In this document: in pieces, positions 25,812-54,260 of the stretch | Layout: the number at the start of each line of letters is the position of its first letter | Numbering within the stretch: the first letter of the stretch is position 1 | Source of the DNA: Amyelois transitella | Lineage: Eukaryota > Arthropoda > Insecta > Lepidoptera > Pyralidae | DNA: 64,000 nt | NCBI RefSeq assembly: GCF_032362555.1 | Contig: NC_083534.1 | Location: forward strand, 2,322,001 to 2,386,000 | Reading direction: 5' to 3' | Notes under the pieces: model-generated | Databases searched by the model: none | Seen by the model: only the letters and a program-made list of their open reading frames with translations | Told to the model about the DNA's origin: nothing | Made by a program: the position numbers and the translations under genes

Positions 25812-26932
25812 TTAATTCCACGATCCTCTTAAATCTGGCGCCGAGTGATGTACCTTACTGTGTAATTTTAAACTAGTAACCTGGATGAATGCTTTACCGC
25901 ATACCTTACACACGTATCTTTTGTCATTTGTGTGGATCCTTATATGCAGGTCCAAAGTCTTCTTTCTCTGAAAAGATTTCTTGCAAATTTCGCACTGGAA
26001 GGGCCTCGAGTCGTCGTGCTTCACCATATGCTTTTTCAACAAGTCTTTACTAAATACTTTGAAGCCACATATCTCACAAGCGAAATTCTTTTCTTTAACG
26101 TGCATTCTAGCTTTATGCTGGGTAAGTACGCTTAAACACATGAACGTCTTAGGACAAATATCACAGCTAAACTGATACTGTTTTACATCATGCACTAAAG
26201 CCATATGTCTCTTTCTTATATATCTAGTTTGCAAAATCTCAGGGCATTTCGGACATTTCAACCTTTCTTGACGATGAACTCTTCTGACATGATCAGCTAA
26301 AGCTGCTTCGGAGGAATACGATCTATAACATTTATTGCATCTATTATTAACATTATGTACAGTTCTGACGTGATTCATTACATTGGCTCTTCCAGAAAAT
26401 GCTTGGCCGCAGATTTCGCACAAAAACATTTCAGTTTTAGTATGAAGCTTGTGTACGTGACCGATGAGTGTCCCGAAGAATAAGAATTTCTGGCCACAAT
26501 CAAGACAAGACATTCCGTCATCTGATAATTTATACGCAAACATATAAACGCTCACATCTTTATTTAAATTCATGTCGTGAATGCCATTTAAATGATCGAA
26601 GAAATCCATTAGATTTTCAGATGGTTTGCTACACTTTTTGCATACTATTTCTGTAACGTCCAATTTGATTTTCGATGTTGTCCTGACTGTTTGAAGTATG
26701 TATTTGAGTTTGGGGTTCTCGTGTTCGTTTCCGGTATGTTGTTTGAGAGCAGAGCTGGAAGAGAATGGGCAGCGGCAGTAGAAACACATGTACTTGTTGC
26801 TGCACCATCGGAATGGCATGATGGTGGAATGTTCTATGACGGCGGTGAGGAGTTTCCGTAAGTCGGCTAAATCTCGGAGTAGCTTCGCATCATCAAGTGT
26901 CTGTTTCAGAGATATTAACGGCTTTTCTTCAT
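25812..26932 (-). CDS. Gene D terminal exon T11
   Basis: 1121 bases, phase-1 acceptor. After DEEKPLISLKQ and a leucine-rich helix comes the VIEHSTIMPFRW motif, then ten C2H2 units, from CFYCRCPF to the last one with contacts Q/S/L. It is the closest relative of T10: same length, mostly the same residues. Penultimate finger contacts are R/T/L, as in T10. Stop codon followed by AATAAA 119 bases on (plus 25688-25693). It is the most distal choice, 23.4 kb from the exon-4 donor. Confidence 0.87.
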
Positions 26933-29900
26933 CTGAAAAATGAAAACAATAATTCCGGTTAATTTTGTTTTTCTAAGCTAATTTAATGGATGTAGTTAAT
27001 AAGTAAGTTAAATAGGTACCTCTAGTTCTTCATAGATTGGGCAAAATTTGTAGGTTTTATGAACTGCAGTCAGGCCAGGCTACGAGGATTTTATTAAATA
27101 AAATTCACGCATATCTTGCGGGGTGAGGTTCTTTATCACTTTCGATTTTATTTCTAGATTATTTGTATTGATGATATAATAGATTTTCATTAAAATTTTT
27201 ATTGAATTCCATTTTCTATTTTGATGCAAGCAATGAATGTATGAAGGCGTAAGTAACAATAATTATTACCGATATCTCAAATTTAAGAGTCGTAAAAGAA
27301 GAATACTTTATATCTTGTTGGAGTAGTCCTTGTAATTAAAGAAATGGGTGAATCTGTTGTCCTAGTCCAGCAAAGATATCATTTTTATTCCTTTCACATA
27401 GAACGGTTAGAACAGTTAAAATGTAGACAGTACAAAAATAGGTGAAACTAGAATATGAAAAAAAGATAACAAATTACTCACGAAGAAACAAATACTAATT
27501 ATTATTTTGATATGCTTTACCAAAAAAAAAATCTTAGGTACCTAATTTATTTTGTTATGGCTCGCATATCCACATACGTTTCATATCAGCATAGGCATGA
27601 CAATATAATGAAAAATAATTACTGTAGGATTTGCGATAAAGACGCAAGAAAAGGCTGGTTACTATTAAATATTTTACTAAGAACTATCAGTGTACACCAT
27701 ACTACATGTCGCTTTAGTTTCCGAAGTGTAACACACTTCGGAAACTAAAGCGACTTCGAATCGCTCAGTAGGACGAGACTTTAACAATATCGTCTAGGTA
27801 TACAATGAGAAATTATTTTCGCTGGTACATTTTATAGTGTTTATTATGGTATTTATTTATCATAAGCTTTGATTCAGTTCCATGAAACATCTGATAGGGT
27901 AGAATGATGCACTTTCACATGTAACTTTAAACTGGTGACCTGTATAAACGCCTTCCCGCATTCCTTACACGCGTATCTTTTATCGTTCATGTGAATCCTT
28001 ATATGTAGATCTAAAGTCTTCTTTCTTTGAAACGATTTCTTGCAAATTTCACATTGGAATGGTCTCGAGTCGTCATGTTTCACCATATGCTTCTTTAGCA
28101 AGTCTTTATTGAAAACTTTAAAGCCGCATATTTCGCACGAAAAGTTCTTTTCTTTCACGTGCATCCTCGCTTTGTGCTGATTCAACACGCTCATGCATGT
28201 GAACGTTTTCTTACAAATATCACAGGTGAATTGAAATTGTTTAACATCGTGTACTAACGCCATATGTCGCTTCTTTAGGTAAGGAGTACGTAATATTTCT
28301 GGGCATTTGGGACACTTTAATCTCTCTTGTCGATGCATCCTTCTCACGTGATCAGCCAAAGCAGCCTCTGAAGAATAACTTTTATAGCATTTGCTGCATC
28401 TATTACTGCCGATGTTATGGACTGCTCTGACGTGGTTGGTAACATTAGCTTTACCGGAGAAGGCCTGGCCGCAGATTTCACATAGGAACATCTCAGTTTT
28501 TGAATGTAGCCTATGCACGTGGCCGATCATAGTTCCAAAGAAAACAAATTTCTGACCGCATTCGAGGCAAACCATTCCATCATCCGACAATTTAAACGCG
28601 AACATGTAAACGCTCACATCCGTGTTCAGTTTCATATCATGAACTGCGTTCAAATGGTCGAAGAACTCGATCAAACTATCTAATGGTTTACTGCATTTCT
28701 TGCAGATGATTTCTGTGACGTCCAACTTTATTTTGGAATTGGTCCTGACATTTTGCAGTACGTATTTGAGTTTTGGGTTTTCGTGTTCACTTCTAGTGTG
28801 TTGCCTGAGCTCATTACTGGAGGAGAAGGGGCAGCAGCAGTAGAAACACATGTACTTGTTGCTACACCATCGGAACGGCATGATGGTGGAATGTTCTATG
28901 ACGGCGGTGAGGAGTCTCCGTAAGTCGGCCAAGTCTTGCAGGAGCTTTGCGTCATCAAGTCTCTGTTTCAAAGAGATGATCGGCTTTTCCTCTTCTGGAA
29001 AGAAAATCACTTCGTTTGAATCGTGCTCTTCTTTGACCGACTGGAATTGGAGGGTTATGTTCTCATTTTATTAAGATTTATTTTGCTTTTCACTAATATC
29101 AGTCGGCTGGGTAAGTTTACTTTGCAATAAATCCCCTTTTGCTTCATGTAATTTTTTTTTATTGCAATTGATTATTTCGTGTTTTATTTTTAAAAATGTC
29201 CTATCTTAACCACATGTATTTGGTGGCATGAAGTATTTAAACTCTGCTTTACTAGACAGATCCATCCCTTACATATTCTCCCGGTGGTAAGTAAGTCATA
29301 TAATCAATGAGGCAGCGATCAGTGAAGAAGTCATCAATGAAACCGGTGAGGCAGCCAATGATGCAATCAATATATAACAAAATACATCAGCGAAATCATT
29401 TAAACTCTATTATCTTCATTTATAGCTCTTTACAAACATAAAAGTTGCAGCACATGCGCTTCGGTGGTATCCGCATTCGGAGATCATCATAGTGTATTCC
29501 TATTAATAATATGCAATTCCGACAAAGGTTGCAGAAGTCAGACTGGAGGCGCTTTATGTCACAAACCTGACTTTCCATTTACAGTATAGTGGGAAGAAGG
29601 CCTCTCCTGAGAGGATATCTAGGCAAGGATATCTTCATCACAGAAAATTCGAACCTTAACCCTTTTTGCGTATCGCGCATATTAACCGGGCGCCTTCCCG
29701 ATTCGACCACCGACGCCCTAAACCTCTTGCGCAAAAATCTGTATTATTTTGTAAATGGTTTTAATTGCGCGGGCGCAGCTGCGAGTAGAAGCTAGAAGAC
29801 CTATTTTACTCCGATTTCTACGATCTTACTTTAACAGTTCGCTGGCGGAGGAGAGGAAAGACCACACGATATAAAATGTGGCTACTAAAAGAAAAATACT

Positions 29901-32900
29901 GATTTCTTGGATTGCAAGATTTTATTGGCAAAGCGTATTTTTATGTAACAACTAGGTACGTATTACCTAAAGTAAGGATTAGCTGTATTTACAGTGTGGT
30001 AATAAAACATTGTTCTGGTCAATAGTAAGTTATATTTAACAATTTCACTAAATATATTGAATAATGTATACATTTCCTAAGTACCTGCCAAATTAAATTA
30101 ATAAAAACTATGTGCTTGAGAGTTAGTCACGGAACAAACGTATAAATACTCAGATACATACATACAAAAACAAAGTATATTAGCCCAACTCCAATAAGAG
30201 GTGTGCAAAAGCATTTCATTCTACTCAACTTGACATTTAAGAAATTGTTATGGGTTCAATAATATGTTGACTCGTTCAGATGAGGTTTCGTGGATTAATC
30301 GACTGTTGTCCCAATAGCCTGGGACGCGCGATGCCGTATTTATCGCGCGTCATAAAAAATAATCACTGTTTCTCTTTTTATTATGACGTGAAACGGGACG
30401 TCGAGCGTGCAATGTACGGAGGTTGGTTTCATTCATAATCCTGTTGGACCACACGGCTTCTATTCTGATTATACCTACCTACTTTTAAAAAATCTAATGG
30501 CACTCACTATCCGGCTATATTCAACGGATTGGGCAAACCGTCGGGGGCCTCGACATTTTCTGATGAATATTATTATAATGCTGCATCATCGTCTTCTTCG
30601 TCTTGAACGCCTTGTCGCACAAAGGGCATTTAAAGTTTCTCTCGTTGCTATGCTTGGTCATGTGTTTCTGTAACCTACACTCACTAAATGCTCTCCAACC
30701 ACAGATACCGCAAACGGCATTCTTCTCTTGCATATGCGTTTCTCTAACGTGCCTCATCATGGCACTCCTAAACACGAACGTCTTACTACAATGCTGGCAT
30801 TTAACCTCATCTCTAGTTTTGTGCTCATCAATCATATGCCGCGACCTTCTGTAATGAGTTTCGAACAGAATAGGGCATTTGAAACATTTATATCTCTTAT
30901 TGTGGTAGTTCTGCATGTGCGTTCTCATTCTGTTCATGTTCGTCAACGTTTCTCCGCAGAGATTGCAAATAACGGTCGCTTTCGAATGTTGCTTCTTGAC
31001 GTGATCTCTAAGATTTTGCGGATATCTAAAATGCTGACCGCATATTTCGCAAAGCAATTGTGAACAACCTTTGTGATGTCTGTTGGAATGAACTAATAAA
31101 TGCCCAAATGTCCTATAATGTTTCTCGCAACCCACGCATTCAACTGATATATTAAGCAGTTTGAACGGACTCATACACAATCCGTTTTCTTTGTTAAACG
31201 GAACGTTATGACTCCCTATCAAATGATCTATCATTTCGTGAAAGTCCTCTTTAACTTCGCTACATATTCGGCACTTCATATTTGAAACATCAACGTATAC
31301 TGACGATTCCCAGAAGTTGTTCATGACTTTTTCAATTTCCTCGGCTTGTTTGTGAATTTCACTGTGCGATTTCAAATCTTTCGGCTCTTGGAACACGTCG
31401 TAGCAATAGAAACATCTATAGGAGCTCTTGAGCCATCTGAATGGCATTATTGTGGTATTAGTTACCACCTCTATTACATTCTTTCTCATTATAGTAAGTT
31501 TCTCTTTTCCAGTTACAGCCTTCCATGTATCAGTTGCCGCGCCAGTATCGTGGTCTATTTTCCATCTTCTTTCCTTTAATCCTGAAAGTAAAATGGTCTT
31601 CTTAGATGTAGGTTCAAGGAAGAATGCTGATGAATTTTCAAAATCCTTTGGAAATTCGAGTAGCTTTCTTGTTTTTGGGAAATGAACTTTCGTCTACATA
31701 TTTGTGTTTGCGAGTTTGGTTTTTCTTCATCATCTATCATGTTTCCTACTAGTCTACACACTGTATCTTAATTTTCTAATCTCAACCATCTCTTTTTTAC
31801 TAATCAGAAAGATATGGACAAATATGTTTAGATAGCTCTCCGCTTTTTTCTACAATTAGAAAGAGACGAAGATAAAATTCAAGGTCATTTTTCCTTTTCG
31901 AATTTTGACAGGTGAGTATGTGCTTCCACAGTAGAAATGATATACAGAATAGACATGATATTTTGATTAAATTCTAGTGTTTTACATCGTACAAGAATAG
32001 TATAATATATCAATAGTCAGATCGACGATATAGTGCAATCTGATGAAGTGATGTATAAACGACTATCACACAAATCACATATTCATCCAACGTAGGTAAA
32101 TAAAGATTTCATTGAAGAATCATTCAACGGTATAAATTTGAGTGTAAAATCTAAAACATGTCTTCAATAGACAAGAGAAAAGAATAGAATGGATAATTTA
32201 AAGTTCATTAAGTTAGTTACTAATTAAATATCCCATTGATTGTGACTGGACGGGCTTATCGGAATGTAATCTCATGAAATGAGCTTTCATTATCTTCTTG
32301 GTTGTAAATGCTTTGCCACAGACTTCGCATTTAAAATTCTTCTCACCGCTATGTTTAAGCATATGGTTCTTCAAACGATTATTATTAAACGCTTTCCACC
32401 CACAAATACTACAAATGTGATTCCTCACCTTCAAATGCGCGTCTCTCAAGTGTGTCATCATCATGCTCCTAAACACGAACGTTTTAGGGCAGTGCAAGCA
32501 TTTTATAGCTTTCCTGTTCTGGTGTTCCGCTACCATGTGCGCAGATCTTTTGTAATGGCTGTCAAACGTCTGTATGCAGACCAAACATTTGTATTTCTTC
32601 GCGGCTTCATGCTGATTCTTCTGATGAGTCTTTAATTTCGAACGAGTGTCGAACTTTTCACCACATTCCGTACATAACACGCCAGTGTTCTCATGAACTG
32701 TTTTGATGTGCAGCCTCAATAGGTTTTCTCCTTTAAAATGTTGTCCGCAAACGTCACAGAGTATCACAGAAGTTCCTTTATGGTCTTTATTCGTGTGACA
32801 CAGTAAAGGGCCAAAAGAATAAAAGGTAGCACCGCAGACGAGACAGTTAACCGACACATTATCTAATTTGAACGCCACCATACACAATCCTACATCTTTG

Positions 32901-35900
32901 TTAAAAACCACGTTATGTGCAACGACTAAATGATCTACTAAGCTATGAAGATCCATAATTTTCTCAGGGCACAGTTTGCAAGACAAATTTGAGACATCTA
33001 CATAGACTACCGATTCCCAATAGTTGTTCATTGCTTGTTCTTTTATATCGTCACCAATATGAGTTAGTTGATGATTCTTTAGGTCAGATGGTTCTTGAAA
33101 TATGTTGTAGCAGTAAAAACATCTATAGGAGCTCTTCAACCAACGGAATGGCATTACAGTCGACTTTGTCAACACTTGTATTACATTTTGTCTCATTATT
33201 TTTCTTTTCTCCTTCGCAGTTGTGGGCACTTCCGTGACTGGTTTGTGCACAGTTTTCGCACGCAACTCTATTTGTTCGTTTCTTTCCGTGGGTATATAGT
33301 TTTGTTCAGATTCTATAGTCCTAATTGGTATATCCATTAATTTCGACGTCTTCTGGCCGCCACTAGATTCACCTGTAACGAAAACAGGTTCTCATTTAAT
33401 AGCGGCCAGAGACATACATTATATTATTACTTGAAATTGTCGTACATTTTGCGATAAGCAGGACAATAATTCATGTTTATGCTAAGGTTCAATCGTACTC
33501 CGAACTTAGTATAGGTAGTATGTTTCTCTTTCCAATTAATAATGAACTACTTATATGAAGTAATATCTTAATGTGCTATAGCGCATAACCTTCCAGTGTA
33601 CTCGTATAAAGTACCTATAACTAAATGGTTTGTGGAGTCCTGGTTTGTTGAAATAAATTCCTTATACAATATTCATTTTGCGAATATTCCTTCAATCCTA
33701 GGTATTACAATTGATCAAAATAATGCACTTCCCGTTCGTGTGCGCTCAGCGCATCAAAAGTGACGAACCCTTGCCTACAATGACGGCATACTCTACCAAA
33801 TTGTCCAGTGTGGACTTTCATATGCGCACGCAAATTACTAGACCTTCCAAATTTCCTTTCACATATACTACAAGAATAGTTCCGCTCACCAAAATGTTTA
33901 CGTTTATGTAACTTAATCATCCACTTAATAGTAGTTTTATAGCCACAAAGGTCACATTCGAATCTAGCATCGGAATGCAACGCTTGAACATGTAGGAGCA
34001 TTGCACCTTTGGTTGTACAAACTTTAGGACAATATTCACATTTAATCCGATATTTCTCCACATTATGGACTTTACCCATGTGAACTTTTACTTGGTAATT
34101 GTTCTGGAACGATTCACTACACAAATTACAATCGTAATTTTTGACTTCACCATGTATTCTAGCTCTGTGTTTCTCCAACTTATGAGCGGCGGGGAAGAGC
34201 ATGTTGCAGATTTTACAGCGATGCCCAATATGGCTGCAAGTGATGTGTCTTTTGAGCCTAATGTTATCTATGAAGCTGCGACCGCAGATCTGACACATAT
34301 AACTATGTTCTACATGTTCTTTATTCATATGACTGACTAGACTGGTGAAATTATCGAACTGTACATCGCAGATGACGCAGGGCATGATTTCTTTTTTAAG
34401 GACGAAAGGGAACATGCAAACTCCAGCGGATGTATCATAATCCTCTTCGTGGACAGTAACAATATGAGATATGAGATCATCAATGCTTCTCAAAGGCATA
34501 TCAGGGCATAACTTGCAACTTATATTTGTGACATCAATTTTAATTGGTATATCTTTGGATATAATTCTTTTTGGAATGAAATCGTCTAAGGCGACGTTGC
34601 TATGTTTTTGAGTGGTGTGATCTTTTAGTACAGTGCAATCGGTCATGGATTTAGAGCAGTAGAAGCAACGGAAGCCTTTGGTATTCCAGTTGAAGGGCAG
34701 AACGTTCCCGTATCGGAGCACGGCGAGTATATTCTCCCGCATGCAATACAGACGTTCCATTATCTGCGATTCCTTCTTGATTCTCATGCCTGCAAAGAAT
34801 CAAGAATATTCTTGTGGATATATGATTGCTGCTGATACCATTACTAAATAGAACCTATTCCAGTTATTTTTTAACGTCTCGTTATTGAATATTTGTTTGT
34901 TTGGACACGTAACTGTGAATGGACGTGTACTCGTATGTCTTACTCAGGTTTAACCACTAAACTGATCACGAGTTAAATCAGTAATGTATTAAAAAACCCA
35001 GGAAATCATACAATAATTTTATTAAATAAAAAAAAAACAAAAGAAATCATACCGACTAGTCTCTTTCTCTCTATAAGCTCTATTTAAGTTAGCTTAATAC
35101 GTTGCCGACTGTACTGGTTTTTACTAGCCAATGAGAAAGAAAAATGCGTATAATGGCCACCATTTACATATTAACTTAACTGCAGAGCTTATTCTGTAAA
35201 TTTTTGAGGGGTTCCTTTGAATATCTCCCATATTTATGACCAGAACTTAAACATTTTTTTATAACACCACACGGACTCTACTCTTCTGAATGCAAAGAGT
35301 TTTTCAAATCCGATTATAAATACCGGAGATGTGCCCTAACATGCATAAAAACAGAGCTCTTGCTGTTGATTTTTGTAGTGTTCCCTGAAATATCTTTCAC
35401 ATTTATGACCCGACCTTAGCCAAATTAAATATAAAACCAATCGGACGCTTTACTATTTTTGCAAAAAGTATTTTTCAAATTTGGATTACAAATGCCGAAG
35501 ATATGCGCTAACATATTTTTTTAAAAATACGGTCGGTTTTTTTTTCACATACGTGGCGTTAGTAAATAAGTATAAGACAATGGATTTGGCTATTCAATAC
35601 AATGCTCGAGAAAAACACATACATTTTCCTAATGAACATATTGTCCAATCACTTCGGCCCCTTCCAGGTCATCACCTACAAACTCCAGTTGCACTGACTC
35701 AGAATCAGCCTGCAGTTCAACCAAACCTTCAGTTTCTTCAGTGAATTCAACGTGACGATTCTTCATGTGAATACGATAATTCGTAAGATGCGCAAAAGCT
35801 TTGTTGCATATCGAACAAACGAACTTCTTTTCACCCGTGTGCGAAACGGAATGAGAATTCAAATTACTCTTTTTAGAAAATTTCTTTCCGCACACCGAAC

Positions 35901-41900: not shown

Positions 41901-44900
41901 TCATCTGAAATCAAATTGCACCCGCTGTAGTTTTATTTTCGAAGGTCATATCGTATTTTCATTTACACAATTTATTACCTCCATGTTTTTTTAAAACATT
42001 AGGTTTATTGGATACAAGGGCACGGTTTCTATTGAAGTTTAAGACGCGATGCGATCATTCATCACATATCTCGATGATGTCATCATAGTTTATTTAACAT
42101 GGTTTGCCATATGGACCTTCAAAATTTACTTCCCAAACATTGATTACCTTATTAACTGCTTAGTTTGCATTTTGGAATTGCAGTTTCCGATATGAGAAGA
42201 CATATGGACTATGAGGTTCTTCTTCCAGAGAAACTGTTTGCCGCAAACATCACAATGGTAGTTCCTCTCGCCTACATGCTTTACCATGTGAATCTTTAAC
42301 CGCGCCGCGTCAAAAAATCTCTCCGAACATACGGAACAATGAACGTTCTTCTCTTTCAAATGGAGCCTCCTAACATGTGAATTCATTACAGAGTTTTTCG
42401 CAAAAAGCTTCCCACAGTAATTGCATTTATGTCCTACACCGTGAGCATTTATTAAATGTCTTCTCATTAAATTTCTGGAAGAGAACTTCTCTGAACACAC
42501 GGTGCATGCAGATATTTTAATACCGTGTACATTCCCACAATGTAATTGTAGCATATCATTTGTAGGGAACACAACTGCGCAAATTTCACACCTGTGCGAG
42601 TAAGGCTTGTGATGGTGGTTCATGTGAGCCCTTAAATTTGGAACTGTCCGAAAAGCCATTCCACAGTGTACGCAAATAATCTTATTCTCTGCGTGACAGC
42701 TGCTTACGTGTTTTAACAAATTTCCAAAGTACCTACACACTTCCGAACAATACGGACACGGATAGCTGTCTTTTATTAACTTGTACGTCTCCAGATGGTT
42801 ATCGATAGACTTATTGTATTGCGCATTATGATCACTTATTAAATGATCAATTAGAGTATTTAAGTCGTTGATTGTTTTAAAACATAATTTGCAAGATAAA
42901 GTCGATATATCGATTTTTATACGAACACCGTCTTTCCTATTACGCAACTTCAATCCTTTTATCTTCGTATCGCAATGGGGGTGTTCGGTAACCGTATGTT
43001 GCTTTAAGAGATCGCTATCTTTGAAATCTATAGAGCAATAAAAACACCGGAATGTATGCAGGAAAAACTTAAATGGCACTGCGGTGGACATGTTCAAAAC
43101 ACAAGCTACATTTCTTCTTATTTCAATTACGGAAGATTTCTTTTCATCTTCTGTGTTCTGTACATGTGAATATTTCATGTTACATTTAGAAGCGTGAACT
43201 AGAAAAGCCATTTTCGTACTAAGAGTTTTATTACAGAACTGACATTGGATCATGTTTTCCAAGACATGTTCGGTTTTCATGTGATGAAGCCTTTTGCTAT
43301 CAGATGTAAACGTTTCAAAGCAGAGATTACAACCAGAAATATGCGCACTTTGCTTGTGTTTATGAAAATCCGCAAAGCTTTCAAAAAATTGCAAACATCT
43401 ATTACATTTGAACTCTTTTTTATGTTGAGTTCTTAAGTGAGAATGTAAATATCTTTTCTTATTAAAATTATGGTTACATTCGTGGCACGAGAAACTATTG
43501 TCTGGATGTATGGAATTGACATGACTTATAAGTTTGCTGAAATAATTGAAGGATTCATCGCAATACACGCATTTAAGATCTAACAAGCGATAACTTGAGA
43601 TTGCAAGTTCTACGCGTTTATCGTACTGCAAATTATGTTGTTCTGTCAAATGGTCTGTTATTTCTTCAATATTGTTAAATTTATTATTACAAATTTCACA
43701 AGTGACGTGTGAAACATCAATTTTAACTTCAGTATCACCAGATTTAACGAGTTTCATAGATCGTTCTTTGTCTGTGCAGCGTCCGTGTGCTTTTGTATGT
43801 TTTCTGAGATCGGTATAGTCTTGGGCGTCTTGCCCGCAGTAAAAACACATATATTTCCCACGCCATTTGAAAGGAATCAAGGACGTGTTGTTGAATAACG
43901 TGAGAAGGTTACGCCTCCTCAGCTTGTTAGCGTTCAATACTTTTGGCGGCCCAATATCATCTGAAAAGATGAAAATTTTTTCATGAGAATTTGGGGGCCT
44001 TCGCTTTTTGATACTAGTGTTATAATAGCGCTTCGAAAAATATTGTTCAAAATAATAATGAAGTCTAAACAGACCGACCGTGATTGAAGTTGATTTTGAT
44101 AAGAGTCACGCAATACAACGTTAACTAAAGCTTAATGTTATAAAATAGTACAGATTATTACCACTTTTTGAATATGAACGAAAGTCGACTACCACCGCAT
44201 TTATTTTATAGAAATTATTACAAATTCTTATTTACAATTTATTTTTAATACGAGTAATTTCACACAAACAGTTTGTCTATGACTATTATATGAACAAGCT
44301 TAATTCATAGATAAGCTATCCAGCCTTTCGTTGGCTCTTTCTACATCGCTGTTGATAAAGACGTGATATACTCGTACGTATGTATGGTTATGACGAAAAA
44401 AAGGAAGAAAATAATAATCCTACAGCTGTAAAGAGTGCACGTGCTTATTATGCCTAGCCATATGCGTGCGCAGGCTTTTCCTCCAGAAAAATCTCTCGCC
44501 GCAGACATCGCAATGAAAATTTTTCTCCCCACTATGCTTGACCATGTGTCGCCTAAGAAGGATATTATTAAAAAATTTCATATTACAAATTGTACATTCT
44601 ACATTCTTCTCTTTGAGGTGAGTTCTTCTAATATGATCACGCATGAAAGAATTCCTAGTGAAAAGTTTGCCGCAATAGTTGCATTTATGACCGGAATCGT
44701 GCGCTTCTATCAGGTGTTTTTGTCTCGAATATTGTGTGGCGAAAGATTCCGGACATTTAGGACACTTCGCGGCTTTGACACCGTGGGCTTTCGCCATGTG
44801 CATGTACAGCCTGGAGGGTATGTTACATTCTGCGCCGCAAATATTACACTTGAATCTCCCATCGCGATGGTGCCGCCAAACGTGCACTCTCAAATTCTGA

Positions 44901-47900
44901 TCACGCCTAAACGTCTGACCGCAGTAAACACAAATTATATTATTATTCGTATGTTTCTTGTTCATGTGCTTCAGAAGCGTCCCGAAGAATCTGAACACTT
45001 CGCCCGGACAATTTGGACAAGCCATGTGATCTTTAATAAGCCTATACGGTTGAAGACACGTTGTTATACTTTTGTCGTAATTTGCTTCGTGTTTCAGTAT
45101 TAAATGATCTAGAAGGTTGTCCAAATCATTCATTGATTCGAAGCATATTTTGCAGGCTAGAGTGGACACATCGATCTTAACGCATGCCACAGATTCTCTG
45201 CATTTTCTTATGCATTTCTCTTTTATATCACACACTGGGTGTTCTATGACAGTGTGCTCCCTCATAGAATCTGAATCTGCAAAGTCTTGAGAGCAATAGA
45301 AACAATTGAATTTATTTTTATAAAAATTGAATGGTATTGCAGTAGACATATTTATAACTATAACAATGTTTTGCCGAAGTTGTTTCACACTGGGTCTTTT
45401 AATCTCATCGTAACTTTGATCTAAATCCAGATCGTATGATTCCTTTTTTATGATTTCGAAAATTTCTTCTTCGACTTTGCACTTCTTTACGTGCATTTTC
45501 AAGCCTTGCTTTGTGTGGAACTCTTTGGAACAATTGTCACATTGCAACGACCCATCATCGGGGTGCTCCAGTTCCATATGCTTCTGTTTCAAAGCAGCTG
45601 ACGGCAATTTTAACTGGCATACATTACACTTAGTAAGATGCCTGTTGTTTCTATGTTTACGTAGAATATTCAAAGAACTAAAACTTTGAGGGCACAATTC
45701 ACATTTGTATCCGCCTTCTCTGTGATAATTCTTTATGTGGGAAAACAAATCTCTCTTTTTGTTAAACTTTTGATTACATTTATCGCAAAGAAGACAATTT
45801 TTAGGATGACTATTATTTACATGTGACACTAAATAACCAAAATATGAAAATTTCTCTCCACACACAAGACAAGTCAAATCTACGAGCCTATACTCCTCTA
45901 TAGCCATTTCTACTCCTCTGTCATACTCCAATTTGTGTTTCACGTGCAAATGTGTCAATATTTCATCAAAGGCAGTAAATGGTTCATTGCAAATTTCGCA
46001 AGTCAATTCGGATACGTCGATTTTGATTTCCATGTTTTGTCCTCCCTTCAAAACTTTAAGAGAATGGTCTTTGGTCGAACAATTGCCATGGGATTTGGTA
46101 TGCTTCCTCAGTTCCGTGTATTCAGCTATGTCTTTACTGCAATAGAAGCATAGATACTTCCCCCTCCACTTAAACGGTATAATTGTAGTGTTGTTGAATA
46201 GAATTTGGAGATTTTTGCGTCTGCGCATGGAGGAAGAATCGCAGCCCTTGTATTTCCGAGGCTTTACATCTGAAAAGGAAACGTCTACTGTAAATGTACC
46301 CTTATCATTTAAACTAAACATCGAAAAACATTTTAATTTTAAATCATAATAAAGTAAAAATTTTGATACAATTATTTACAGGGTACATTTAAAGTTTTCT
46401 TGCTATCCTTACTCCCATAAACGGTTTATCAAAATAGGTCCCATGAAAGGTTTATCAAAATATTTCATGTTTATGGAATTAAAACTTGTGTAATTTAGAT
46501 GCACCTTAAGTGTTACCGTAGTGATAAATGAAAAGGTTGGAAGAAATTACATAAACAATTAACCGCCTATTAATTTATTTGTAAAAAAACCTAAAAATCT
46601 TAAGTATGTACAATAATGAGTATAACTAAAATACCAATTAACGACACGGGCATAATTAAACACTAAAAATAAAAACTAATTTGGTCTTTAATTTGCAATC
46701 TTAAGACTATTTAAGCGCTAATATTATCTGAATGATGTACTCTCATATGTAACCTCAAACTGTTATTTTGAACAAACGCCTGACTACACACCGCACATAC
46801 AAATCTCTTATCATTATTATGAATCCTCATATGATCTCTCAAAGTCTGCTTTCTTGCATACGACTTCATACAAACTTCACATTGATGTACCCTTTCACCA
46901 AAATGTTTCACCATATGTTTTTGTACGTGAGTTTTAGAGAAAAACTTCTGTTCGCATAACGTACACGAGAAATTCTTCTCCCTCATGTGCACCTCTTTCA
47001 GATGCACTTTCATTTTGCTCATGATCTGAAAGTTTTTATCACACACCGGGCATTTGAACTCTACCGTTTCCACGTCGTGTTTTGACACATGATGTCTCTT
47101 CCTTTGCATATAGCTAGAAAAAGTTTCAGAACAATAACAGCACTTGAGCGTTCTATCTTTCTTGTGTACTTTCATTTCGTGATGATTTTTCCGTGACAAC
47201 GACTCAAAGGTTTCCGAGCACGAGCAACATTTGAAACGAGATCCGTGGCTCAAGGAGTGACACCGCAACCTGTCCTGACTAAGAAACGACTTGCCACACA
47301 ACTCGCAGATATAATCGCCGTAATGACCGTTCATGTGCTGGTTCAACTTGATAAAATACTGAAAGTGCTCTTTACAAATCGCGCATTGGAATTCATCCTT
47401 CTTCAATTTGTAAGGTATCAGACCATATCCAAATTCTTCGACAAACGATTCATTATGAACAACTTTCATGTGATCAATTATTTGGTCTAGATCTTGTGGA
47501 TCGCCATCGCATAATTTACAAGTTAAATCGGTAACATCAATTTTAACTTTTTCGTCTCTCCTTAAATAAGCTACAGCTGTTTTGATGTTGCTTTTTACGT
47601 GTTTGTCTTTAGTGTGTTGTTTGAGTAAAGCGGAGTCTTTGAAAGGCATGTGACAGAAGAAGCACAAGTAGTTCTGTCTGTGCCATTTGAAGGGAACCGC
47701 CGTGGAATATTCCAGAACGACAATAGCGTTTCTCTTCATGAGTCTGTTGCGTTTCGTTGACGACATGGAGGACTTACTCGCTGCCTCTGTCCCATTGTCA
47801 CCTAAAATGTGAAATTATACAATTCAAATTCAAAGTGACGAACTACTCTTCCATTATTTTTAACGTTATTTGTCTTCAGTTAAGTATTATTAAAAACATA

Positions 47901-50900
47901 TTTTTAGTTCATGTAGGCGTCACACCTTCTTAGACCTCTTACGTAAGAATAAATCCACTTTTTCGACGATTTATGCAAAGGCATTCTTATAAGTCGATTT
48001 GTACGTCTTTGCAAATCTCCATTTGTTAGAGCATTCCTCCCACCAAAATTAGATGAATATGTCGTGTAAATATGTTAAATCATAGATAGTTCAGACAGAT
48101 TTATAGGCGTTTTTAAATGAGTTAAAATAGTAGAACATTTTAATTTTGTTTCTTTCTAATCCGTTTATTGTAAGAGAAAGCACATACATAAAGTTGAAGT
48201 ATACAGTGGCCGACTTTATAGAAAAAAGGTAAATTATGTTATTCGTAAATATCTGTGTACCCAATTTAATCAAAATCGGTTTAGTAGTACATATTTATTT
48301 TTTCCTTATAAAAATACAAATATCTCTTCATTATTACTGTGGACTAGCTGTTTACCGCCGACTTCAGTCAGCGAATAACAGAAACATCAGACAGCATTTT
48401 AGGGTTCTGTAGTCATAAAACTCAAACGGAACCTAAATAGCATGAATCTCTCCGTTCGTATATTAAGACAAGTTAACGTAATTTCAAGTGATCACACAAT
48501 TGTCTCCATACCTTAATAATAGTCCTTTGAAAGATGACTTGAAAGAAGTATATTTCTGTCATTTCCCATTGTAGGCATTTGGAGGATCAACTCAATTCAG
48601 CCGTTTAGCCGTGACAGTGTAACAGACAGACTTTCACGTATTGGTATCAATTTTTAAGGTTAAGTAACTGATAACTTATACATTGTATCAAATTTTGAGA
48701 AATTAAGAATTTTGCTTATTATTCGTTCACTCCGGTTACTCGTATTCTGATAATAGTCCCGCCGACATGACTAAGGGTTTAGGAAGACGCTATCACGCAT
48801 TTGCATCTGTTTCTGGGACATGTTGTCAACAAAAGCGGCATTACTAGGACCATTATGAAAATGTAGGCTTTTAATTTTTTGTATAACTACTTTTGCGTGT
48901 TTGACCCTCACTTTTAAAATCGAACAGTGGTAGTTTATTGCCGTGTGGTTCCCGGCACCAATAGAATAAAGAATGGGCTCTCCATCTCCTTTCCATGGAT
49001 ATCATCAAAGGCAACCAAAGGATAGGCTTATAAACTTGAGATGGGCTAACAACCTGTTACTACTTGAATCTAAATTCTATTATTAAAACCAAACAGCTGA
49101 ACGTGGCCTAACACATCAAGACTGTTGGCTCTGTCTACCCCGCAAGGCATATAGACATGATCATACATATGTTTGTTTAAAATCTGTCATATTTTAACAG
49201 AACGTCAATGGAAGCATTGAACTCTTAAACAATTTCCATTTACAATTTACCCATTGAAGACATAAATTCCAATATTAACAGACAAGCTATGCCCGCGACT
49301 TCGTCCGAGTGTGAAATGATGAAAATGAAATGAAAATGTTCTATTCAACGCAAAAATAATTTTTCAATTCGAACCAGTAGTTCCTGAGATTACTGCGTTC
49401 AAACAAACAAACTCTTCAACTTTATAATATTGGTATAGATATTAAATACTTTGTGAAAGATTGTGGAGCTGACTGCGTCGTATCGCAAAAGTGAGAACAG
49501 CTTAAAGATATCACGCCCCTTATTCGTGGTTACAACGTATCCGAATTTAACTTTAAATCTGCGCTTTGGTGTCAGGGCTTCCAATGGAAACTCCTTTGAA
49601 TGCACCAGATGGTTATCAGTGTGTTGTATTGATTCACGAACTATGATAACGTATGTACTTTTCTACCCTCTCAGAAATCGAGAGGGAGGGAACTTAGTGA
49701 CATATACCTATAGCTTTTCAACATTCGTGAATCGACCCTCTGCCTTTTCGAAAAAAAATGTTCTCGAACAATCCACTCATTCCAAAAATCTGGTAAAGAA
49801 TATAAGATAAAAGGGCTTGCAAAACTAACACGATTAATCACTACTTAGATGTTTTTGATGCATCAGCGCATGAAGTGGGATGAATATTGTTAAATGTTGT
49901 TGTCAATAATAATAAATAAAGGACTTATTGGTCGCATATATTTTTTTAACCAGTTTTCCAAGCCCTGCATTTTAAGGCCAAGCGTGACCGCTGTATGCGA
50001 ACATAACATTCAGTGATTCTCTAATTTTAATTTCTGTTGCTTTATCAAATTGCATTGTGTTGCCTTCAGCGGTGTCTGCTAGGCCCAGAACCATAGAATT
50101 CGGAATGGCATAAGACAATAGAAATGGAAATGACCGTTAAATATAATAATCAAGACCGGTAGTTTTAAAACCATAACATATTCATGCTATATGTAATTTT
50201 TTAGATTTAACAGCTTTACATGTTTGTAAAGCTGTTAAATCTTTATAACTTATAATATTTTAAAACATTTCTATTGTCTTATATTCCGATTTCTATGTGT
50301 ATAACATAACAATGTGATCTTACCTTTAACGAGGGTTTTGGATGACTTCGCTTTCTCCTCCATCTTGGCGACTTTAGCTTTCTTCTCTGTCTTGACCACA
50401 GTCTTCTTTGGCCTGCCACGCTTGTTCTTGACAGGCAAGGTTGACACTGTGATGTCGGAGACTGATGGCTCTTCAGGAGGCTTCAGGGGTTCATCTGGAA
50501 TACAAATGTACTTTATTGTTGTGGCGACCATAGAGTTTTATATAACAGTTGATTTTTACAGAGAAATGTCATTCATATAAAAGTCAGTTGCATAAATATT
50601 ACTTTTAAAGTATAATAACTGTTCCTTTTTGTGCTAATACATCTATGTTTCCTTTTTTCTCTGTATTACCCTTCGTTTCTCATCTATTTCTCACACTCAT
50701 GTACCGTGTGGTTGCCAGCACTTTTGAACAGGACCATTCCATCTCTTTCCCGAGAATGCCGTAGAAGGCGACTAAGGGATAGGCTTACATAGTTGGGATT
50801 CTTCTTTTAATTGATGGACTAGCAACCTGTCACTATATGCATCTCGATTCCATCACCAAACCATACAGTTGAATGTAAATGTGAACTTTAAGTCTTTGCC

Positions 50901-53427
50901 AAACTGTTGGCTCTATCTACCCTGTAAGAGAAAAAATCGTATTGTGAATACATTTTTTCCCTAAGTTTACTGTGTTTCTCTTTGTTTCTCTATATTCTTA
51001 ACACATCGTTTCTCATCTCTTTCTCACACCTACTTTATTGTCTGAAAAAGATTGTTTCGACGCTAAACCTCAGCATTTCTACTTCCATTTTTCATCTACA
51101 CTGTAGTGCAAGCTTCCTCATCGCTCTGTATGCCAGTTGCTGCTGCTGATTGTAAAAGTAAGAGGAACAGGCATGTTACAAGGGACTTCTTTCAGGTGAT
51201 GGACTAGCAACCTGTCTCTATTTGAACCTCAAATAACTACTAAGCTATCCTGCTGAACATAGGCTTTAATAGTTTTTGAGAATATAAATTCTTTCTTCCC
51301 TACAAAGGCCCAAAGACGTGTTAGTGTGTCCGGAAAAGATCGCCCTTGTTGGCCATTCATGTAAATGGCCCACTTCTTAGTAAGACTCAAGGTCATTTAT
51401 GAAAATGTCCCACTTTTTAGAAAGACTCAAGGTCATTGATCTAAACTTGAGGTCATTCATGTAAATGGCCCACTTCTTAGCAAGACTCAAGGTCATTCAT
51501 GTAAATGGCCCACTTCTTAGCAAGACTCAAGGTAATTTATGTAAATGGCCCACTTCTTAGCCAGACTCAAGGTAATTTATGTAAATGGCCCACTTCTTAG
51601 CAAGACTCAAGGTCATTCATGTAAATGGCCCACTTCTTAGCAAGACTCAAGGTAATTTATGTAAATGGCCCACTTCTTAGCCAGACTCAAGGTAATTTAT
51701 GTAAATGGCCCACTTCTTAGCAAGACTCAAGGTCATTCATTTAAATGGCCCACTTCTTAGCAAGACTCAAGGTCATTCATGTAAATGCCCCACTTCTTAG
51801 CAAGACTCAAGGTCATTCATGTAAATGCCCCACTTCTTAGCAAGACTCAAGGCCATTCATGTAAATGCCCCACTTCTTAGCAAGACTCAAGGTCATTCAT
51901 GTAAATCGCCCACTTTTTAGCAAGACTCAACCTAAGCCATGCGCAAATCTAAATTTTTTTCTTTATGAATGAATGAATGAATTTAAATAAATTTATATTA
52001 AATATTAATGTAAAATTACATAAGCTTAATAATTATGGTATTTACAGTCTTCAACAATGTATAACGGTCATATACATTATTTTATTTAGAGTTCCTCAGT
52101 TAGTTCTACAATAATGTACAGAAATTAATTCATGCTTATGTCTAATACATTACCATCATCAAAATCCATATCATCATCAAGATATTCGGGTTCATTGAGT
52201 GTGGTGTCTTCTGCCTCCGCCTTCAGCTGAGACTGGTAGATGAGTACTGTGAGAGGAAAAGAAAATTGTTTATTAATTTATTTAAAGATAATGTATTGAC
52301 TATTAAAGTCAATCAAAAATCATTTTTAAAAATGCTATAATTATTACGTTTGTTATTTGAAATATGGCTGCTGCTCGCCTATGACATTAGCTATTTTAGG
52401 TTTGATTACCAACTATGGAAAGATTAATTTTTTGTATGTTTTTTCACTTTATGGTGTTTTTATAACAGTTAACAACAACACTCCGTCATCCAGGTACTCT
52501 ATTAAGTTTAATAAAATCAACAAACCCTTGGGTGCAAACTCGCCCCTGCCAATCATATCAATGAACTTCTTCTCTGACTCCAGGACTTGCTTCTTGAAGT
52601 TGCACGCATCCCGGAGCCTTGTGATGCACACTTCACATATCAACCGGTTGGGGCCATTTGGGCCGTCTGAGTGCTGAGAGATCTGAAAAAACACTGGGAA
52701 ATTAATATTGGATTTTTATGGGACTTTACAATACAATGGTGGTCCACCCACTGTATAATATGACATATGATATAGGGGCTCCATTTCAAATATTTCCACT
52801 TATTTAATACAACGAAGTGATGAGAATGATATTAATATATGCCATGTTAATGTTTATAAACAGACTTCAAAAGATAGTCTTATAGATGTTAGTTCAAACT
52901 TATGTAAGGGACAGGCTAATGGAAGGTTTGAGCCTTTTGAGTATGGAGGATATTGAGGATACATGTAAGGGTCTCTTGTGGACTAGGGAACCCTAAACAT
53001 CAAAATGGCGGCGGGTCGATATGCCAGCTTCCATACAACACGTCCAAATCCCTAAAAGCTGTTGTTACCGGTTTTAATTTATATATTGTTTGATATGAAT
53101 AGGCAGTCAATGGTGGGCTAAAACATAAGCCTGCCCGAGACGATACTTTTTGTACAAAGCATAAGCCAAGGTATGAAAGAAAGATGACAACCGGCAATAC
53201 CTATCCTAAAATTCAAATGTAACATAAAATTGTTAAATACTTGTTTTCCTCAGATATTTAGTCTAAATACTTACGCCTATATCAAAGCATTCTAACAGCA
53301 TATCAGCGTATACTTCATTCTCATTCATCCAAGTGTATTCGGTCCCCATATCTTTGTAACATCCTTCAGAGAGACAACACCGGCATAGACCGGGACTCTC
53401 CTTTACAACTATTTCATCGAACTCCAT
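25812..53427 (-). CDS. Gene D: ZAD locus with eleven alternative zinc-finger terminal exons
   Basis: Four constant exons (53275-53427, 52526-52682, 52154-52246, 50324-50494; 574 coding bases, ending in phase 1 after a G) are followed by eleven terminal exons. Each starts at an AG acceptor and takes the frame up exactly after that G. None of the eleven is followed by a splice that would chain it to the next; each ends in a stop codon. Predicted isoforms T1-T11: 554, 807, 796, 804, 806, 597, 552, 577, 544, 564, 564 residues. All would share the ZAD, acidic linker and AT-hook, and differ in the whole DNA-binding domain. By analogy with lola and mod(mdg4), one promoter would make a family of nuclear factors able to dimerise through a common N-terminus. 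Seen: exon borders, phase, stop codons, lack of other ZAD exons. Inferred: that splicing really joins them. The alternative is eleven separate genes whose 5' exons I missed. Confidence 0.8.
26933..27873. other. Spacer between T11 and T10
   Basis: No exon on the minus strand. It holds the T10 3' UTR, with AATAAA at plus 27852-27857, 17 bases beyond the stop. On the plus strand a short ORF from 27608 contains CRICDKDARKG, which faintly resembles a ZAD start. A 22-bp perfect hairpin is listed separately. Confidence 0.45.
27708..27754. repeat. Perfect 22-bp hairpin
   Basis: Arms 27708-27729 and 27733-27754 (core CGCTTTAGTTTCCGAAGTG) are exact reverse complements around a 3-base loop. It would fold as RNA from either strand. 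Origin unknown; it lies in the T11/T10 spacer. Confidence 0.85.
27874..28994 (-). CDS. Gene D terminal exon T10
   Basis: 1121 bases, phase-1 acceptor (TTTCCAG). Begins EEEKPIISLKQ, then VIEHSTIMPFRW and ten complete C2H2 units. Finger 1 has an odd CFYCCCPF start with extra cysteines. Near-duplicate of T11 over its whole length; differences are spread through the fingers, for example the sixth finger helix (RTPYLKKRH here, QTRYIRKRH in T11). Last two fingers have contacts R/T/L and Q/S/L. Confidence 0.87.
28995..30520. other. Spacer between T10 and T9
   Basis: No minus-strand exon found. T9 has AATAAA on the minus strand at plus 30377-30382, 139 bases beyond its stop. Fragments of family B lie near 29510-29600, of a GCGCGGGCGCAGC-type repeat near 29650-29790, and of the ATTATGACGTGAAACGGGAC palindromic repeat near 30333-30420. 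The rest is unremarkable AT-rich DNA. Confidence 0.45.
30521..31581 (-). CDS. Gene D terminal exon T9
   Basis: 1061 bases, the shortest terminal exon. Phase-1 acceptor, then a lead (GLKERRWKIDHD...), the VVTNTTIMPFRW motif and nine C2H2 units; the usual tenth finger is absent. Sister of T8: both share the CFYCY finger 1 with FQEP, FVFRSxMM in finger 7 and the CGIW/CGW type finger 8. It ends shortly after the ninth finger. Confidence 0.86.
31582..32212. other. Spacer between T9 and T8
   Basis: 631 bases without an ORF of note. No AATAAA or ATTAAA was seen on the minus strand for T8, so its poly(A) site is unclear. Confidence 0.4.
32213..33372 (-). CDS. Gene D terminal exon T8
   Basis: 1160 bases, phase-1 acceptor (GTTACAG). 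The longest lead of the single-module exons, about 54 residues before VLTKSTVMPFRW, with serine, glutamate and lysine. Nine C2H2 units, from CFYCYNIF to CEVCGKAF; no tenth finger, as in T9. Short tail after the last finger. Confidence 0.86.
33373..33704. other. Spacer between T8 and T7
   Basis: 332 bases. ATTAAA on the minus strand at plus 33395-33400 could serve T7, only about 20 bases upstream of the T8 acceptor. Nothing else seen. Confidence 0.4.
33705..34789 (-). CDS. Gene D terminal exon T7
   Basis: 1085 bases, phase-1 acceptor (TTTGCAG). Very short lead, then NILAVLRYGNVLPFNW and ten C2H2 units. The most diverged of the single-module exons: finger 2 is one residue longer (CKLCPDMPLRSIDDL), finger 8 lacks the usual double phenylalanine (CGYKTTIKW), and the last finger reads CRHCRQGF. 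Last-finger contacts differ from the Q/S pair of T1, T10 and T11. Confidence 0.86.
34790..35628. other. Spacer between T7 and T6
   Basis: 839 bases, no exon seen. Two loosely similar halves (around 35215-35300 and 35380-35480, sharing ATTTATGACC and a GTATTTTTCAAAT-like segment) suggest an old local duplication. Nearest AATAAA for T6 is on the minus strand at plus 35018-35023, about 600 bases from the stop. Confidence 0.4.
35629..36848 (-). CDS. Gene D terminal exon T6
   Basis: 1220 bases, phase-1 acceptor (TTTGCAG). Lead GAKFSTLEDKHKK, then YVLQYSNATPFLW and ten complete C2H2 units ending CSICNKAFAHLTN. It is unusual in continuing for about 40 residues after the last finger as a strongly acidic, hydrophobic-dotted tail (EETEGLVELQ, EFVGDDLEGAE), which could act as an activation region. 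No other terminal exon has this. Confidence 0.87.
36849..38149. other. Spacer between T6 and T5
   Basis: 1.3 kb of AT-rich DNA without exon or named repeat. AATAAA for T5 is on the minus strand at plus 37877-37882. This is the largest repeat-free gap among the terminal exons. Confidence 0.45.
38150..39996 (-). CDS. Gene D terminal exon T5 (double module)
   Basis: 1847 bases, phase-1 acceptor (TTTTCAG). Two finger modules in one exon. The first starts at ILFNNTTIIPFKW and has seven units, the seventh with the C2HC pattern (CSFCGKECHSTN...QHTARC). A proline-rich joint (DEPPPPVFDSFPSG) follows. The second starts at CVLNMSTAIPFKF and has nine C2H2 units. Sixteen units in all. The acceptor lies only 67 bases beyond the T4 stop codon. 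Confidence 0.87.
40064..41904 (-). CDS. Gene D terminal exon T4 (double module)
   Basis: 1841 bases, phase-1 acceptor (GATTTCAG). Same two-module plan as T5: seven units ending in a C2HC finger (CVFCGRICRNTD...HIRKC), then CLNMSTAVPF-type start and nine C2H2 units. The last 35 residues (GKQFLWKKNLIVHMSSH) are almost the same as in T3, but T4 stops six residues earlier. Only 67 bases separate its stop from the T5 exon, with no poly(A) hexamer between. Confidence 0.87.
42144..43960 (-). CDS. Gene D terminal exon T3 (double module)
   Basis: 1817 bases, phase-1 acceptor (TTTTCAG). First module from LFNNTSLIPFKW with seven units, the seventh C2HC (CQFCNKTLSTKM...HASKC); second module from CVLNMSTAVPFKF with nine C2H2 units. 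The joint between modules is short. The C-terminus matches T4. AATAAA for T3 occurs on the minus strand at plus 42004-42009 and 41971-41976. Confidence 0.87.
43961..44419. other. Spacer between T3 and T2
   Basis: 459 bases, no exon. AATAAA for T2 is on the minus strand at plus 44200-44205. A degenerate family A tail lies near 44310-44390. Confidence 0.45.
44420..46269 (-). CDS. Gene D terminal exon T2 (double module)
   Basis: 1850 bases, phase-1 acceptor (TTTTCAG). First module from ILFNNTTIIPFKW, seven units, the seventh C2HC (CDNCSKEFHTKQ...HVKKC). An acidic joint (KKESYDLDLDQSYDE) follows, then IVINMSTAIPFNF and nine C2H2 units. Second-module finger 3 (CPNCPGEVFRFF) is one residue longer than standard, a feature shared with T4 and T5. 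Confidence 0.87.
46270..46710. other. Spacer between T2 and T1
   Basis: 441 bases. AATAAA for T1 is on the minus strand at plus 46574-46579, 132 bases after the stop. A short repeated segment (GGTTTATCAAAATA) occurs twice near 46425-46465. No exon. Confidence 0.45.
46711..47801 (-). CDS. Gene D terminal exon T1
   Basis: 1091 bases, phase-1 acceptor (ACATTTTAG); the most proximal choice, 2.5 kb from the exon-4 donor. Lead GDNGTEAASKSS, then VVLEYSTAVPFKW and ten complete C2H2 units. The last two fingers (SYARKQTLRDH and FVQNNSLRLH, contacts R/T/D and Q/S/L) and the HNNDKRF joint match genes B, C and E more than the neighbouring T2-T9, so T1 may keep the ancestral form. Confidence 0.87.
48940..49172 (+). 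repeat. Retroposon family A
   Basis: Full-length but diverged family A copy with head TTGCCGTGTGGTTCCCGGCA, opposite to gene D. Confidence 0.6.
49285..49440 (-). mobile_element. Helitron-like element with internal deletion
   Basis: Keeps both ends (GCTATGCCCGCGACTTCGTC and ACTTTATAATATTGGTATAG) but has lost about 100 bp of the middle compared with other copies. Confidence 0.5.
50203..50242. repeat. Perfect 18-bp hairpin downstream of D exon 4
   Basis: AGATTTAACAGCTTTACA (50203-50220) and its exact reverse complement (50225-50242) around a 4-base loop. In gene D transcripts it lies 81-120 bases after the exon-4 donor. Confidence 0.85.
50324..50494 (-). CDS. Gene D constant exon 4 (AT-hook linker)
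   Basis: 171 bases, phase 1 to phase 1. Encodes an acidic/proline start (DEPLKPPEEPSVSD), then NKRGRPKKTVVK, a good AT-hook core (GRP flanked by basic residues) likely to bind the minor groove, and a lysine-rich stretch (KKAKVAKMEEKAK). The donor GTAAGA follows AAA G. Every terminal exon begins with the two bases that complete the codon after this G. Confidence 0.88.
50700..50945 (+). repeat. Retroposon family A, diverged
   Basis: Recognised from ACCGTGTGGTTGCCAGCAC, CCGTAGAAGGCGACTAAGGG and CTGTTGGCTCTATCTACCC. Opposite strand to gene D, without a clean TATG tail. Confidence 0.5.
51351..51930. repeat. 40-bp minisatellite in gene D intron 3
   Basis: About fourteen units of the type CAAGACTCAAGGTCATTCAT + GTAAATGGCCCACTTCTTAG. 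Variants are ordered: a three-unit block with GGTCATTCAT, GGTAATTTAT and CCAG...GGTAATTTAT repeats at 51481-51600 and 51601-51720, a 120-bp higher-order period. Nine units contain TCAAGGTCA or TCAAGGCCA. One 20-bp half unit sits at about 51441-51460. Confidence 0.9.
52154..52246 (-). CDS. Gene D constant exon 3 (acidic linker)
   Basis: 93 bases, phase 1 to phase 1. Encodes a glutamine/glutamate-rich start (YQSQLKAEAED) and a very acidic end (EPEYLDDDMDFDD), the same character as exon 3 in genes A, B, C and E. Confidence 0.87.
52526..52682 (-). CDS. Gene D constant exon 2 (ZAD second half)
   Basis: 157 bases, phase 0 to phase 1. Encodes LICEVC, the second zinc-binding cysteine pair of the ZAD, then ITRLRDACNFKKQVLESEKK, the long helix used in ZAD dimers. 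The donor GTTTGT is weaker than the others but is the only one in the right phase. A cluster of GGxNGPN residues precedes the cysteines. Confidence 0.88.
52683..53274. other. Gene D intron 1
   Basis: 592 bases of AT-rich DNA. No repeat family or additional exon was recognised; a possible older repeat with TACCGGTTTTAATTT lies near 53066. Confidence 0.4.
53275..53427 (-). CDS. Gene D constant exon 1 (start codon, ZAD first half)
   Basis: 153 bases, 51 codons, phase 0 donor GTAAGT. Starts at ATG in the context AAAATGG. Gives LCRCC at residues 14-18, the first ZAD cysteine pair, and ends EVYADMLLECFDIG, the conserved exon-1 end of this family. Confidence 0.9.
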
Positions 53428-54111: not shown

Positions 54112-54116
54112 ACCTA

Positions 54117-54259
54117 TGTGGTGATATGCAACCTCCACATTAGCTTTGACACCTTTTATCATAAAACGAACATTTCAGTTCTGTCACATGTTCAAAGTCA
54201 TACTGTATAATTTTATTGAATAAAGCCATATTTACTGAGAAATGGTTAGTTATTCTACA
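54117..54259 (+). repeat. 5' LTR, 143 bp
   Basis: Starts TGTGGTGATATGCAACCTCC, ends GTTATTCTACA, and appears identical or nearly so to the 3' LTR, which suggests a recent insertion. Confidence 0.85.
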
Positions 54260-54260
54260 A

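Follow-up and report, generated by a model that had tools for sequence, protein, structure and literature searches.

The window analysed here, a stretch of 64,000 nt, contains at positions 25812-53427, on the (-) strand, four common exons followed downstream on the same strand by eleven intact C2H2 zinc-finger exons (Table 1). The four common exons each carry a GT donor and, from exon 2 onwards, also an AG acceptor. Once spliced, they form an open frame of 574 nt from the ATG at 53427, encoding 191 residues with a ZAD at the N-terminus, then an acidic linker, then a basic linker whose single GRP core, in exon 4, we take to be AT-hook-like. The spliced product matches the Pfam zf-AD model (PF07776) with 33.8 bits for a cut-off of 28, and the CxxC pairs are invariant across the five ZADs of the window. 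No BTB domain was found in the constant part, zf-AD being the only Pfam model matched at E values up to 0.1. The ZAD matched none of the sequences of solved structures in a phmmer search (E up to 1), although the Pfam model does match. The exon-2 donor, GTTTGT, scores weakly and counts against the gene model proposed below. Common intron 3 also contains a 40-bp minisatellite at 51354-51930, with 12 copies of 95% match within 51450-51930. A retroelement fragment with RNase H and integrase, presumably Ty3-like, lies at 54116-55894, some 0.7 kb further upstream than the ATG. It is flanked by 259-nt inverted arms of 100% complementarity, which would stem either from a rearrangement in the recent past or from an artefact of the assembly.

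Table 1. Exons of the ZAD locus and neighbouring ZAD genes in the 64,000-nt window. Finger numbers (9, 10 or 15) were counted with a simple C2H2 pattern; E01-E11, terminal exons in order of distance from the ZAD.
Feature	Position	Strand	Remarks
Common exon 1	53275-53427	-	ATG at 53427, first half of ZAD (CxxC); donor GTAAGT
Common exon 2	52526-52682	-	second half of ZAD; weak donor GTTTGT
Common exon 3	52154-52246	-	acidic linker
Common exon 4	50324-50494	-	basic linker, one GRP core (AT-hook-like); donor AAG/GTAAGA, phase 1
Common intron 4	47802-50323	-	precedes first finger exon
E01	46711-47801	-	10 fingers; array module nearest the neighbours' finger exons in the tree
E02	44420-46269	-	doubled module, 15 fingers; better-scoring out-of-phase AG at 46220
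E03	42144-43960	-	doubled module, 15 fingers; lacks in-frame ATG at least 15 codons before core
E04	40064-41904	-	doubled module, 15 fingers; stop 67 bp from next acceptor
E05	38150-39996	-	doubled module, 15 fingers; better-scoring out-of-phase AG at 40016
E06	35629-36848	-	10 fingers
E07	33705-34789	-	10 fingers
E08	32213-33372	-	9 fingers
E09	30521-31581	-	9 fingers
E10	27874-28994	-	10 fingers; sister of E11
E11	25812-26932	-	10 fingers; sister of E10
Neighbouring ZAD gene	557-11068	-	ZAD 11068/10607; finger exon (frame 557-1888, acceptor 1806, phase 1); linker not traced
Neighbouring ZAD gene	12107-16757	+	ZAD 12107/12906; linker-like frame; finger exon (frame 15438-16757, acceptor 15565, phase 1)
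Neighbouring ZAD gene	19633-24303	-	ZAD 24303/23295; linker-like frame; finger exon (frame 19633-20844, acceptor 20825, phase 1)
Neighbouring ZAD gene	56670-60807	+	ZAD 56670/57287; linker-like frame; finger exon (frame 59650-60807, acceptor 59669, phase 1)

The eleven terminal exons all match C2H2 models and have open lengths of 352-615 aa. Joined to the common part, each gives the make-up of a ZAD-C2H2 (ZAD-ZNF) factor, with two CxxC pairs in an N-terminal ZAD and a C-terminal C2H2 array. By our reading of the predicted contact positions, there are wide differences among the arrays; E10 and E11, the youngest pair, are identical in six of ten fingers. The initial annotation had described a single set of ZAD and linker exons serving eleven finger exons, each with a length of 2 modulo 3, its own stop and an acceptor that restores the frame after the exon-4 donor. 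This anatomy proved exact. An AG in the fitting phase is present at all eleven acceptor positions, and the length rule, with the stop included in the count, holds for every exon. As the common part ends in phase 1, a partner exon must supply two nucleotides first, and all eleven do so. A constant part followed by several terminal exons compatible in frame, here 11/11, is the arrangement that characterises lola and mod(mdg4).

Ten of the acceptor triplets are CAG and one is TAG. Acceptors were ranked with a simple score, using untrained weights, over the span from 150 nt before the open frame to the conserved core. With phase ignored, the proposed site was the top-scoring AG in 9/11 cases; at the other two (46269 and 39996) a better-scoring AG is present, but only out of phase, where its use would disrupt the reading frame. 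Among the AGs on that strand, the proposed acceptors fall at the 91.7-99.9 percentile. The phase shared by them had also been put forward as an argument. The phase is indeed identical in all eleven, but these are not eleven independent events, since the last intron of all four neighbouring ZAD genes is in phase 1 as well. The common phase is best read as inherited and kept rather than as eleven separate coincidences, and we rejected it as independent statistical proof. Five of the eleven exons have no in-frame ATG at least 15 codons before the conserved PF core (ATGs nearer to the core were left out of the count), so that they cannot easily start alone. Of the others, four (acceptors 47801, 36848, 34789 and 33372) contain an in-frame ATG within the exon, and two (46269 and 39996) have one shortly before the acceptor; these six could in principle be started independently.

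Searches with the two halves of the ZAD (tblastn, E up to 10) detected five ZADs in the window, the array's own being at 53427/52682. No ZAD was found within 25812-50323, nor any ZAD remnant in the gaps between the finger exons; the matches inside this interval were zinc fingers resembling the second half of the ZAD (best E 0.002, 35946-35791) or brief similarities of the kind that arise by chance. A codon-usage scan of 24300-53600 recovered all eleven finger exons, by construction, as these had trained the scan. On the minus strand it detected no further segment above threshold; on the plus strand it reported two, which lie antisense to E10 and E05. The scan passed over common exons 1 and 3, and short exons could therefore escape it. 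The gaps from each stop to the next acceptor measure 67-1526 bp, and in the smallest, which separates E04 from E05, there is no intergenic space that could house a promoter and 5' exons.

The initial annotation had further noted a poly(A) hexamer for most of the exons. Between the stop and the following acceptor, and no more than 600 nt from the stop, an AATAAA or ATTAAA is present for 8/11, the exceptions being E04, E06 and E08, but this frequency is at chance level: the expectation from shuffled sequences is 64-88% for ten gaps and, for the remaining one of 67 bp, 23%. Hexamers were for this reason rejected as proof. Dispersed repeats, defined as self-matches more than 2 kb apart, make up 1% of the 6776 non-coding bp of the array (25812-47801), compared with 9-25% in the four other parts of the window. 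This low repeat content matches a constrained unit, as expected.

The window as a whole is a cluster of ZAD genes, in which four genes are built one-to-one and one gene is built one-to-eleven. The finger exons of the four neighbours were paired with their ZADs by order and strand, with linker-like frames in three of the four, and their acceptors include one (59669) that ranks second, behind a site outside the open frame. Each of the four thus has its own ZAD exons for its finger exon, as in an ordinary tandem ZAD-ZNF cluster, which is not the case for the exons of the array. This contrast between one-to-one and one-to-eleven loci is the best internal control available. The acceptor of the neighbour located downstream of the array (20825) has the same phase and strand as the array, and a twelfth, read-through isoform using it is possible in principle. 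The neighbouring gene at 557-11068 contains a tandem unit of about 135 bp at 8445-9352, with at least 7 copies, between its ZAD and its finger exon.

Pairs of modules from the terminal exons were compared for signs that the exons are functional. The pair E10/E11 has a pN of 0.09 for a pS of 0.80, and in all eight pairs of array modules compared pS lies at 0.76-0.94, i.e. at synonymous saturation, with pN of 0.09-0.43. To judge from these substitutions, all eight module pairs are under purifying selection. The pairs span 8/11 exons, and E01, E06 and E07, which have no close partner, lie outside this comparison. Between E10 and E11 the similarity is also sharply bounded: identity is 0.89 over the initial 150 nt of exon sequence and 0.55 upstream of the acceptor (0.50 in shuffled sequence), and it falls from 0.75 before the stop to 0.40 after it. 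Weaker steps from exon to upstream sequence occur at the acceptors of E04/E05 (0.71 vs 0.59), E02/E05 (0.66 vs 0.57), E03/E04 (0.65 vs 0.53) and E02/E04 (0.67 vs 0.53). For E08/E09 there is no step in similarity at the acceptor (0.55 and 0.55), which counts against the gene model proposed below.

Clues on the growth of the array were obtained from a tree of 19 modules, i.e. the 15 modules of the array and the four finger exons of the neighbours, with no outside root. Intermixing of array modules and neighbours was dropped from consideration, since a branch with 100/99.8 support separates the 15 from the four. E01, the exon nearest the ZAD, is the array module closest to the neighbours (95/93), which fits growth in the downstream direction from an ancestral one-to-one gene. 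Exons E02-E05 each consist of two finger modules of about 300 aa (42144-46269 and 38150-41904). In the tree, the first modules of the four exons group together in one clade (100/100) and the second modules in another (95/86), and this is explained most simply by a single doubling, the doubled exon then being copied. The orders within the two clades are discordant: the first module of E04 groups with that of E05 (97/98), but the second module of E04 groups with that of E03 (100/99). Trees forced to join the second modules of E04 and E05, or the first modules of E03 and E04, were rejected (AU p 0.0017 and 0.0078, respectively, in tests chosen after viewing the tree). Moreover, E03 and E04 are 83% identical over the last 40 aligned codons and 55% before, the high-identity 3' ends being located at about 42144-42290 in E03 and about 40064-40190 in E04. 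Together with the discordant module trees, this difference in identity suggests sequence exchange or gene conversion between the 3' halves of the two exons. The starting point was probably a ZAD gene of the one-to-one type seen in the neighbours; its terminal exon would have been duplicated in tandem to give the array, and a single internal doubling of the module would have been passed on by copying to four exons.

Taken together, a single ZAD exon set, eleven frame-compatible ends, the lack of any other detected 5' coding exon, the lack of room at one junction and the one-to-one neighbours give strong support to a gene model in which one set of ZAD exons is shared by eleven alternative terminal exons. 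On this sequence evidence we consider such a gene likely, whatever its mode of splicing. The locus would form one (-) strand transcription unit. Each mRNA would carry exon 4 spliced to a single terminal exon, with any terminal exons upstream of that one left out, and its 3' end would lie at a poly(A) site behind the exon used. The mRNA of E04 would probably share poly(A) sites in or beyond E05, with hexamers at 39496 and 37882, since only 67 bp separate the two exons. Cis splicing of one long precursor would be the most likely route, and on balance it is the mechanism that we favour in particular. A Dscam-like docking mechanism was considered and rejected. When the 145 nt before each acceptor were paired with the initial 1200 nt of this common intron 4, 2/11 acceptors gave a better pairing than all of five shuffles, about 1.8 being expected by chance. 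There is no excess over shuffles, in what is a weak test with one species.

The same proteins would also result from trans-splicing, with the common exons and the finger exons transcribed separately from promoters of their own, as in mod(mdg4). This alternative differs from the favoured one in mechanism alone and leaves the gene model as it is. It has precedents in mod(mdg4) of Lepidoptera with its many acceptor exons (PMC4667647) and in lola of Drosophila (PMC11426971, PMC12692577), to go by the accessible text of these papers. Here, however, the eleven exons form a compact row on one strand, and the 67 bp before E05 offer no intergenic room for a promoter, although a promoter inside E04 is conceivable. 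Nor was an additional U1-like site (at least 8 of 11 positions) found in the common intron (0, vs 2.3 in shuffles, a weak test in one species), so that an extra element of this kind was discarded as a candidate. Trans-splicing seems rather unlikely, if well short of implausible.

Two further alternatives would alter the gene model itself, and we regard both as improbable. E01 alone might belong to the ZAD gene, the other exons being a tandem array of separate ZAD-less zinc-finger genes with a single exon or a short 5' exon. The in-frame ATG near the start of 6/11 open reading frames would allow for this, as would the tree, where E01 is the array module closest to the finger exons that belong to one-to-one genes. 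Separate genes are difficult to reconcile with the five exons that have no in-frame ATG at least 15 codons before the core, with well-scoring phase-1 acceptors at 11/11, with a similarity between E10 and E11 that ends near the acceptor, with the 67-bp spacing of E04 and E05, and with the lack of extra coding segments on the array strand in the codon-usage scan. It could also be that only a subset of the exons is used and that the rest are decaying remnants of ZAD genes whose ZAD exons were lost. Losses of this kind are plausible in a window with related ZAD genes in both orientations, and E01, E06 and E07 were outside the selection test. Decay is nevertheless at odds with open reading frames that are intact in 11/11, with saturated synonymous and limited amino-acid change in 8/8 pairs (8/11 exons), and with gaps in which tblastn at E up to 10 finds no trace of a ZAD. 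The shared-ZAD gene is thus retained as the preferred model, and the locus is best read as one of the lola-like kind with alternative terminal exons and a ZAD in place of the BTB domain. Of the switchboard pictured in the initial annotation, the gene model has strong sequence support and the eleven factors are putative products, and two of the arguments given for it, the shared phase and the poly(A) hexamers, were weaker than claimed.

One gene would probably be able to make eleven different regulators with the potential to pair with each other. In Drosophila, ZADs are reported to dimerise and to prefer pairing with themselves (PMC9751008, PMC9531945, as far as the accessible text goes). Where ZADs pair mainly with themselves, as in the fly (PMC9751008, in the portion of the text available), each ZAD gene gathers copies of one DNA motif. 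With the same ZAD on all isoforms, this self-preference predicts mixed dimers, and a dimer of two isoforms should be able to combine two DNA specificities. If so, the presence of one ZAD on eleven arrays would turn self-pairing into mixed pairing. It is tempting to speculate, though we hold this as a tentative proposal less likely to be right than wrong, that the locus acts as a switchboard which breaks the rule of one ZAD for one DNA specificity, with as many as 66 dimers, 11 of like arrays and 55 mixed, bridging different DNA motifs in a combinatorial architecture code whose evolution ran parallel to that of the BTB loci lola and mod(mdg4). A gene with one ZAD for eleven arrays would also show that the solution known from BTB genes, in which a constant dimeriser is combined with a DNA-reading end that can be exchanged, evolved once more on a domain unrelated to BTB. 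The locus is in addition a compact test case for the choice among many terminal exons.

Similar ZAD genes with many isoforms may already be present among the automatic RefSeq models for some lepidopteran species. According to the initial annotation, no such ZAD locus was known to be described in Lepidoptera, and this agrees with the literature searched, in which no ZAD locus with alternative finger exons was found among the best-ranked matches (titles and starts of abstracts; insect genome annotations and most subscription papers were outside its scope). None is described in the accessible portions of PMC7655104, PMC4327956, PMC5094011 and PMC12786933, and ZAD scans of viral contigs and prokaryote genomes yielded no related locus.

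With ordinary ZAD-ZNF clusters the locus shares the clustering seen with its neighbours in the window, but in such clusters each gene has its own ZAD, as opposed to one ZAD for eleven arrays here. The gene cucoid of culicine mosquitoes likewise belongs to the ZAD-C2H2 type and gives rise to transcript isoforms that differ at the 3' end (PMC6783274, PMC9810180); in the accessible text of these reports, however, it has three isoforms, the shorter of which are without the last fingers of one array, and no set of alternative finger arrays is described. The likeness to mod(mdg4) lies in one constant dimerising part followed by tandemly duplicated 3' exons. The available text on mod(mdg4) in insects reports tens of alternative 3' exons with tandem 3' exon duplication, and FLYWCH domains in 6/9 acceptor isoforms of B. 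mori and 37/40 of D. plexippus (PMC4667647). In Drosophila, some of its acceptors are on the opposite strand (PMC12692577, accessible part). Where mod(mdg4) combines BTB with FLYWCH and is trans-spliced, the present locus combines a ZAD with C2H2 arrays, all on one strand. In lola of Drosophila, a constant 5' part with a dimerising domain is likewise joined to C-terminal C2H2 fingers that differ among isoforms. The isoforms of lola have one or two fingers each, and the exons of the array 9-15. C2H2 fingers are found in 17/20 lola isoforms, according to the available text of PMC11426971. The constant domain of lola is a BTB of the TTK type and its isoforms are documented by RNA, whereas the array locus has a ZAD and is known from DNA sequence. 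The principle of a constant dimeriser with exchangeable DNA-binding ends is therefore one already familiar from lola and mod(mdg4), and what would be new here is its ZAD version.
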